DNA from: an uncultured Pelagibacteraceae bacterium | GTDB lineage: Bacteria; Pseudomonadota; Alphaproteobacteria; Pelagibacterales; Pelagibacteraceae | Direction: 5' to 3' | Length of the DNA stretch: 64,000 nucleotides | Assembly: GCA_902602655.1 (NCBI GenBank) | Contig: CACKRM010000002.1 | Span: 1 to 64,000, forward strand | Part shown: in pieces, positions 61,734 to 64,000 of the stretch | How positions within the stretch are numbered: position 1 is the first letter of the stretch | Layout of the letters: every line of letters starts with the position of its first letter | Position numbers and translations under genes: made by a program | The notes under the pieces: model-generated | Seen by the model: only the letters and a program-made list of their open reading frames with translations | Databases searched by the model: none | What the model was told of the DNA's origin: nothing

Positions 61734-62908
61734 TTAATTTTTTTTATTGCATTTTTGAGATCTGATATTAAGTCTTTATAATCTTCTAAGCCAATATGCA
61801 AACGTACAAGGTGTTCATTTTTCTTAAGTTTAAAAAAATTTCTCTTTCCAAGCTCAGTAGAGGTATTAAAAACTACTAAACTTTCAAAACCTCCCCAGCT
61901 GTACCCTATGCCAAATAGTTTTAAAGAATTAACGAATTTATATACTGAAGATTTCTTTTTTGAATTTATTATTATACCCAACAATCCTGAAGCTCCAGAA
62001 TAATACTTTTTCCATAATTTATAATTTTTTGAATTTCTTTTATAAGGATATAAAATTTTAGTAATTTTTTTTTGGGTTGAAAGCCAACTAATTACTTTAA
62101 GCGTATTTTCATAATGTTTTTTAAGTCTTAAATCTAAAGTCCTTAAACCTCTAATAACCAAATATGCATCATCTGAAGATAAACGATACCCTGAAACATT
62201 GTTATACCACTTTACTTTATTAAAAGCTTTTTTACTCACTGCTAAAGTTCCTGCCATTACATCTGAATGGCCTGAGTAATATTTAGTCGCAGAAGTTATT
62301 GATAAATCAAATCCAATTTTAATTGGTTTCATAAAATAAGCAGTTCCCCATGTGTTGTCTATTGCTGTGTAAATATTTCTTTTTTTTGCAAAATTAACTA
62401 TCTTTTTTAAATCTTGAAATTCAAAAGTATTACTCCCAGGATTTTCAACATATATAAGTTTTGTTCTTTTATTAGTTTTTTTTTGTAAATCTCTCAAATC
62501 ATTTGGATTGTACCAAACTGCTTTAACATTAAACTCTTTAAGTAATTGTGAAACTAGTTTTTGTGTTGGGCGATATACACAATCTGAAATTAGTATTTCA
62601 TCTCCTGGTCTACAAATACTCATTATCGCAAGAGCTACTGAAGCAAAACCAGTTTGAGTTAAAAAAACGTGATGGGCCCCCTCTAATTCTTTAAGAATTT
62701 TTTGTAAAACAATAGTCGTTTGTGAGCCTTGTCGTCCATAATCGTAAAAGGCTACAGTTTTGTTTTTGTTGATTTTTTTCTGATGTTTTCTAAGTTCTTG
62801 TACTGACTTAAAAAAAATTGTTGAGGCTCTTACAACAGCAGGATTGGCTGATCTATTGACTGTATCTTGACCTGCATGTTTTAAAAATGTGTTTGTGGAC
62901 TTTTTCAT
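61730..62908 (-). CDS. metC: PLP-dependent cystathionine beta-lyase-like
   Basis: NPAVVRASTIFFKS, SITSATKYYSGHSDVMAGTL PLP motif, YSWGGFESL. Confidence 0.9.
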   Translation of the reverse strand: MKKSTNTFLKHAGQDTVNRSANPAVVRASTIFFKSVQELRKHQKKINKNKTVAFYDYGRQGSQTTIVLQKILKELEGAHHVFLTQTGFASVALAIMSICRPGDEILISDCVYRPTQKLVSQLLKEFNVKAVWYNPNDLRDLQKKTNKRTKLIYVENPGSNTFEFQDLKKIVNFAKKRNIYTAIDNTWGTAYFMKPIKIGFDLSITSATKYYSGHSDVMAGTLAVSKKAFNKVKWYNNVSGYRLSSDDAYLVIRGLRTLDLRLKKHYENTLKVISWLSTQKKITKILYPYKRNSKNYKLWKKYYSGASGLLGIIINSKKKSSVYKFVNSLKLFGIGYSWGGFESLVVFNTSTELGKRNFFKLKKNEHLVRLHIGLEDYKDLISDLKNAIKKIK

Positions 62909-62980
62909 AAAATAAGTATAATCAAATAATTATTCTGTATATATATATTTAACAAATAAGTGCAAAATAAGGAGACAAAA

Positions 62981-63064
62981 ATGGGTTACCCAAAGAAGCA
63001 TCGAGGTAGAAGAAAAATTGGCTCAAAAAAAAGAAGAGCTAGAAAAAGAAACAAAAGAAAATAG
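62981..63064 (+). CDS. 27-aa highly basic microprotein (ribosomal-protein-like)
   Basis: ATG...TAG encoding MGYPKKHRGRRKIGSKKRRARKRNKRK; upstream AAGGAGACAAAA Shine-Dalgarno. Confidence 0.75.
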   Translation: MGYPKKHRGRRKIGSKKRRARKRNKRK

Positions 63065-63085
63065 CCTTAAGTAAGAATTATATCT

Positions 63086-63781
63086 ATGAAAGAGATTGCA
63101 CAAATCCGAAGGTTGAGTTTGTGGATTTTTCTTATTCCATTGTTAGCAATAAATTTATGTTTAATAATTTCGCAAAACCCTGAATTGCTCGAAAATACCA
63201 TTTTCTCAGTTGATCAAATTGGACGATCTGGTTTTTCTATACCTTATCTTGATGGTAGTTTATCAATAAGTAGAGCCTCTAGAACATATCCTCAATATTT
63301 GATTTTTAAGCCTGCAATGTTTTTAACTGCTGCTCTTTTGTTTTTTTACTGGAAAAATAATAATCAGTTAGTAAATAATCTTAATTCATCTAATTATAAC
63401 TATAAATTTAAAACATTTGGAATTTTATCTGCGGTTTTTTTAGTAATTCACTCTATATTGCTTGGTGTAAAATTTGATATTCAAATTTATAAGCTTTTTA
63501 GAAGAGTTGTACTTTTGCTGTTTATTATATTTGAAATAATTGCTCAGGGAATTTTGGTTTACCACTTTTATAAACTCAAACTTAAATTAGAAAAATTAAT
63601 CTATAAAAAAGTTTTAACTTTAAAGATTATTTTGGTAATTATACTTTCCTCAGTAGGAATTTTAAGTCTCCCTATTTTGGTAACTAAAGGGAACACACAC
63701 TTCAAACATGCGTTAGAATGGAATTATTTTGTTGGTGTTGTAACATTTTATTTGTTTTCAAGGTTTTTTTGGAAGAAGTGA
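63086..63781 (+). CDS. polytopic membrane protein, unknown function
   Basis: 231 aa with about six hydrophobic segments. Confidence 0.65.
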   Translation: MKEIAQIRRLSLWIFLIPLLAINLCLIISQNPELLENTIFSVDQIGRSGFSIPYLDGSLSISRASRTYPQYLIFKPAMFLTAALLFFYWKNNNQLVNNLNSSNYNYKFKTFGILSAVFLVIHSILLGVKFDIQIYKLFRRVVLLLFIIFEIIAQGILVYHFYKLKLKLEKLIYKKVLTLKIILVIILSSVGILSLPILVTKGNTHFKHALEWNYFVGVVTFYLFSRFFWKK

Positions 63782-63962
63782 AAAACTCACAGCTTCTATC
63801 CTTTTCAGGATAGAAACGTGAAGTTTTGGTTCGTCGTTGTAGGCGCTACCGCCGAACCTTCCCGATCAACCATTTTAGCGCTACTCAGTTGATCTTTCTG
63901 CCCTTTAAGCTTGAACCTCTCGGTTTTTCCTTAAATGGCCAGTTAAGAGTTGCCTCTTAATT
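63781..63962 (-). ncRNA. candidate structured non-coding RNA ending in a terminator-like hairpin
   Basis: TTAAGAG-GCAA-CTCTTAA, ACC-GAGA-GGT, GATCAAC...GTTGATC, GGTTCG...CGAACC, and TTCTATCC...GGATAGAA followed by TTTTT on the minus strand; noticeably more GC-rich than its flanks. Confidence 0.6.
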
Positions 63963-64000
63963 AATATGATTAAAACATAGTTAATCCAATAATTAAATCA

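Follow-up and report, generated by a model that had tools for sequence, protein, structure and literature searches.

The window analysed here, a stretch of 64,000 nucleotides from an uncultured Pelagibacteraceae bacterium, carries at its right end on the minus strand what is virtually certainly the IMES-2 RNA gene of a SAR11 (Pelagibacterales) bacterium, and the loops of the third and fourth hairpin of this RNA very probably pair with each other, as judged from compensatory changes among its relatives. When the whole window was compared with Rfam 15, the minus-strand block was identified as RF02035 (IMES-2) with 160.3 bits (E-value 3.4e-42), which is three times the curated cut-off of this family (54.7 bits). 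The cmscan match at 63967-63826 (minus strand) covers the full model (positions 1-141), and no family other than RF02035 was found within 62800-64000 at E-values up to 1. All titled genome matches (80 of 80) belong to Pelagibacteraceae, Pelagibacterales or Pelagibacter and are thus of marine bacterial origin. IMES-2 is an already catalogued family, reportedly described in 2009 from marine metagenomes as one of several unusually abundant RNAs; to our knowledge, no function has been assigned to it. Since the match to RF02035 is full-length, a result which the earlier note had itself named as removing novelty, its description of the block as a candidate novel RNA fails, and the RNA is a member of a known family rather than a new RNA class. 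The presence of a structured non-coding RNA on the minus strand, on the other hand, is supported by homology, two-sided changes in seven of seven helices, a conserved upstream box and a terminator, and the same support bears out the statement that the block is not 6S, tmRNA, SRP or RNase P RNA.

Table 1. Features of the IMES-2 locus and its surroundings in the window.
Feature	Position	Strand	Basis or remark
IMES-2 RNA gene	63779..63967	-	RF02035 match, GTGAT box and 3' hairpin; transcript of ~189 nt with predicted ends
Promoter-like upstream region	63973..64000	-	Upstream-region alignment; -10-like TATGTT at 63978-63973
P1 hairpin TTAAGAG-GCAA-CTCTTAA, GNRA loop	63943..63960	-	cmscan structure line and covariation
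P2 long helix CTGGCCATTTAAG/CTTAAAGGGCAG with GAAA/CAAG internal loop, enclosing the GAGA-capped inner stem	63898..63942	-	Covariation
P3 hairpin, stem GATCAAC/GTTGATC, loop GAGTAGCGCTAAAAT	63864..63894	-	Covariation
Kissing helix, P3 loop half GCGCTA	63876..63881	-	Covariation
Kissing helix, P4 loop half TAGCGC	63843..63848	-	Covariation
P4 hairpin, stem GGTTCG/CGAACC, loop GTAGCGCCTACAA	63828..63858	-	cmscan structure line and covariation
3' terminator hairpin and T-run	63781..63825	-	Fold and homologue comparison; hairpin at 63825-63786, TTTTT at 63785-63781
Convergent 231-aa membrane-protein-like ORF	63086..63781	+	Neighbour, outside the RNA

All elements described for the block in the earlier note were recovered on the minus strand, namely a GCAA hairpin, a long helix around a GAGA hairpin, two stems with GTAGCGC and, at the 3' end, a terminator-like hairpin followed by TTTTT. 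The first hairpins correspond to P1 to P4 of the IMES-2 family, and the final, 3' hairpin of the block is a terminator. While hairpins and terminator stand as claimed, the right edge given as 63962 which is the 5' boundary of the RNA, had to be moved to about 63967, as indicated by both the family model and the location of the upstream box. The block is also, as had been stated, richer in GC than its surroundings (44% in the RNA compared to 30% in the window and 27% in the adjoining 62900-63780). The minus strand folds with -66.7 kcal/mol compared to -43.4 +/- 4.1 kcal/mol for 200 dinucleotide shuffles (z -5.6).

The upstream box, AAGTGAT, straddles the end of the window, with its GTGAT at about 64001-63997 (minus strand). 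It is conserved to more than 90%, and in 146 of 149 distinct loci its GTGAT precedes the model start by 33-36 nt. Because the -10 element shows weak conservation and many homologues have a poor T-run behind the 3' hairpin, the exact transcript ends, near 63967 at the 5' side and in the T-run at the 3' side, are predicted only. For the 60 nt downstream of the core, a median of -22.0 kcal/mol was obtained in 149 homologues, compared to -7.5 kcal/mol for shuffled bases; the sequence of the 3' hairpin varies between clades and its stem is maintained. The T-run shares a base with the stop codon (63779-63781) of the convergent ORF, which encodes a protein without any Pfam match and is a conserved neighbour in loci of the mnmA type. 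A sequence upstream, TTATCCAC, was considered as a DnaA box and rejected; it belongs to the mnmA coding sequence, at its C-terminal end, and similar copies in the genome are no commoner than those of a reversed control pattern. Between a divergent metC-like gene and the 231-aa ORF, a short lysine/arginine-rich frame of 27 codons (MGYPKKHRGRRKIGSKKRRARKRNKRK) is located at 62981-63064 (plus strand).

Covariation was analysed in 38 representatives (set A1), which are less than about 94% identical to one another. Two-sided changes across the homologues were found in 31 of the 45 stem pairs, and 94.1% of the cells are paired. The covariation score of 0.446 is above that of shuffles (0.188) and of slid versions (at most 0.103), and the four-hairpin IMES-2 consensus with covarying stems is present. 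In P1, all cells are paired (100%) and four of seven pairs change on both sides; its GNRA loop is kept in the divergent loci L171 (GCGA), L172 (GTAA) and L173 (GCAA). The outer part of P2 shows two-sided changes in 9 of 11 pairs, while the inner cap differs in divergent genera. All eight pairs of P3 change on both sides among the 38 sequences. Pair 7 of P4 is unpaired in each of the 38 sequences and is a G.A in the window.

GTAGCGC is present in both the P3 and the P4 loop, and a comparison of about 40 relatives revealed that GCGCUA of P3 is complementary to UAGCGC of P4, which gives an extra helix between the two loops. Compensatory variants of the core GCGCU:AGCGC were found as GCACU:AGUGC in the genera g5 and g11, GUACU:AGUAC in L027/L167 and L084/L134, GUGCU:AGCAC in L122, L126 and L161, and UCGCU:AGCGA in L170. 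In this helix, 95.6% of the cells are paired and 12 cells are two-sided, compared to 1.5 in shuffles, none of 500 shuffles reaching 12; slid versions have at most seven. The loop changes fall on at least four separate branches of a tree built without the columns of the loop-loop helix. In the related loci L035, L163, L165 and L168, four of the five core pairs are kept, or all of them with a bulge, and in L164 the pairing requires a bulge. The gene of the window shares with IMES-2 the same four-hairpin structure, the whole of the model and the marine source, and differs in the 3' terminator hairpin, which falls outside the model, and in the P3-P4 pairing, which is absent from the cmscan structure line. 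As such lines have no means of showing pseudoknots, the kissing helix, added here as a structural refinement of a known RNA, may already be contained in the curated alignment or the first description.

The genes next to IMES-2 differ between lineages. In about 88 loci it follows mnmA, mostly facing a convergent membrane-protein ORF, and in about 46 loci it lies between a tyrosine integrase (PF00589, assigned by Pfam) and ogt; other genes flank it in the divergent genera g5 and g11. The contexts found are four, i.e. mnmA, integrase/ogt, nuclease/SRAP-like and SelO/RmuC-like. In the integrase/ogt loci (L051, L117, L129, L035, L100 and about 40 similar ones), the genes beyond the integrase vary by locus and comprise about ten families, glycosyltransferase-like ones among them, a pattern resembling the border of a hypervariable island. 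The possibility that the neighbouring integrase uses IMES-2 as its integration site was considered and rejected. The sole supporting locus, L043, stems from the assembly of a single cell and has the appearance of an amplification chimera (at 263-1181, the 5' half of IMES-2 is joined to a truncated, inverted integrase), and L174 is only a contig end. Carriage by phages was rejected as well. The sole match on a viral contig (L149, IMG/VR, 2,149 bases) is most likely an assembly chimera, in which a phage methylase gene switches into part of IMES-2 in the last ~100 bases (2040-2149); two more pattern scans and a phage BLAST were negative.

Within the order, IMES-2 was found in 207 of 398 genomes and in 6 of 13 genera, with one match each, and it is single-copy in the Pelagibacterales family f1. 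In the genus of the window, 42 of 51 genomes were positive in the order-wide survey and 26 of 37, with one copy each, in another sample. Ten of the 11 negatives of the latter sample also lack mnmA and the remaining one has mnmA cut by a contig end, so the absences in this genus are probably assembly gaps. In a second family (f2), none of 24 genomes contained IMES-2, and in a sample of the class (289 genomes) only the genome of the window and one of the same family matched. Several closed genomes of a sister genus gave no IMES-2 with either of two models. A divergent IMES-2 in such genomes was considered and rejected, both models being negative; a 21-bit match in G070 (L183) appears, from its reading frames, to lie across the coding sequence of a ribosomal operon (rpoA/rplQ-like). 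In three negative loci (L186, L187 and L188 of G075, G082 and G062), the order integrase, small ORF and ogt is kept with the RNA gene absent in between, and these would be natural empty sites or losses. A GNAT-like acetyltransferase is found before ogt in L189-L194 instead. Given the closed sister-genus genomes without the RNA and the retained neighbours in L186-L188, IMES-2 is judged to be clade-specific and dispensable in some lineages.

All 12 genomes tested, IMES-2-positive and IMES-2-negative ones alike, have SRP RNA and tmRNA at other loci, and IMES-2 is neither the SRP RNA nor the tmRNA of the lineage. SRP RNA was obtained at 50-59 bits in seven IMES-2-positive genomes (including L195-L198). 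In five closed IMES-2-negative genomes (L199-L203), its apical region is divergent and the score is below cut-off (34-37.5 bits); this difference is probably a clade marker, given the close similarity of the five sequences.

Two other readings of IMES-2 were weighed. That it is a 5' leader or a 3' UTR element of a neighbouring gene might be assumed from its position downstream of mnmA on the same strand; in the listed loci, ~60-105 nt separate it from the point where the mnmA match ends. This is highly improbable, however, as the next gene can be convergent; from the four different gene contexts, its own conserved upstream box and its 3' hairpin, IMES-2 is taken to be a stand-alone RNA gene and not a leader. 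Only slightly less remote is the possibility that IMES-2 stands in for a housekeeping RNA in this lineage, above all for 6S RNA, which is likewise a small stand-alone structured bacterial RNA. The 6S family RF00013 was detected in none of 61 Pelagibacterales genomes (G000 and 60 related ones), while controls including Caulobacter were positive. This absence is uninformative, however, since 6S RNA is undetected alike in genomes with and without IMES-2; moreover, the fold of IMES-2 differs, consisting of four hairpins and not of a long bubble-bearing rod. Nor is IMES-2 a renamed core housekeeping RNA, because several closed sister-genus genomes lack it and SRP RNA and tmRNA occur beside it.

We give an even chance to the combined reading of IMES-2 as a gene with kissing loops and its own transcription, the RNA acting in trans by its shape and probably via a protein. 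It would be transcribed alone as an RNA of ~190 nt, and would act through its folded shape and not through an exposed antisense seed, because the conserved unpaired residues are those of GNRA loops, internal loops and the loop-loop contact, and because the gene neighbours change between lineages. The most likely partner would be a cellular protein, bound for scaffolding or sequestering; action by protein binding is proposed tentatively. A base-pairing small RNA whose exposed loops, including the two with GTAGCGC, bind mRNAs would also have a stand-alone gene, a typical length and a terminator; the same seven letters in two loops resemble repeated seeds, and conserved loops could contact RNA targets as well. 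Such a role is nevertheless unlikely, as the loop cores change together to stay complementary to each other and not identical (GUGCU with AGCAC), which indicates that they are engaged internally, and most of the remaining conserved unpaired residues are purine-rich positions of GNRA or internal loops. A repeated motif offering the same protein or target site twice was rejected on the same grounds, since the loops in GUGCU:AGCAC and GCACU:AGUGC are complementary yet not identical. Equally doubtful is pairing of the loops between two RNA molecules, in which case IMES-2 would work as a dimer or a higher assembly. AGCGCU, the usual core of P3, is self-complementary, and covariation is the same for pairing within and between molecules; in addition, GOLLD, ROOL and OLE are described in PMC12286853 as RNA-only assemblies forming homo-oligomers, and as structured bacterial RNAs of unclear function and strong conservation they resemble IMES-2. 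They are, however, much larger and without homology shown to IMES-2. In the members with GUGCU/AGCAC and GCACU/AGUGC, neither loop is self-complementary, so that like-with-like dimers are not the conserved feature, and the adjacency of P3 and P4, joined by a linker of ~5 nucleotides handy for pairing within one molecule, favours a contact inside a single RNA.

IMES-2 could be a compact, tertiary-folded RNA built around a P3-P4 helix not described before, lineage-specific and trans-acting, present in nearly all members of some SAR11 genera and, in others, lost or never acquired, and acting on a protein or as an RNA assembly; this wider picture is held with slightly less confidence than protein binding. 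As the discovery of a new RNA class, the locus carries no weight. IMES-2 is nevertheless a conserved RNA of SAR11 bacteria, whose cells rank with the most abundant ones in the ocean, and the loop-loop pairing supplies a directly testable fold for it. Closed genomes with and without IMES-2, including loci with the same neighbours in which the RNA is missing, provide a natural comparison for its function.
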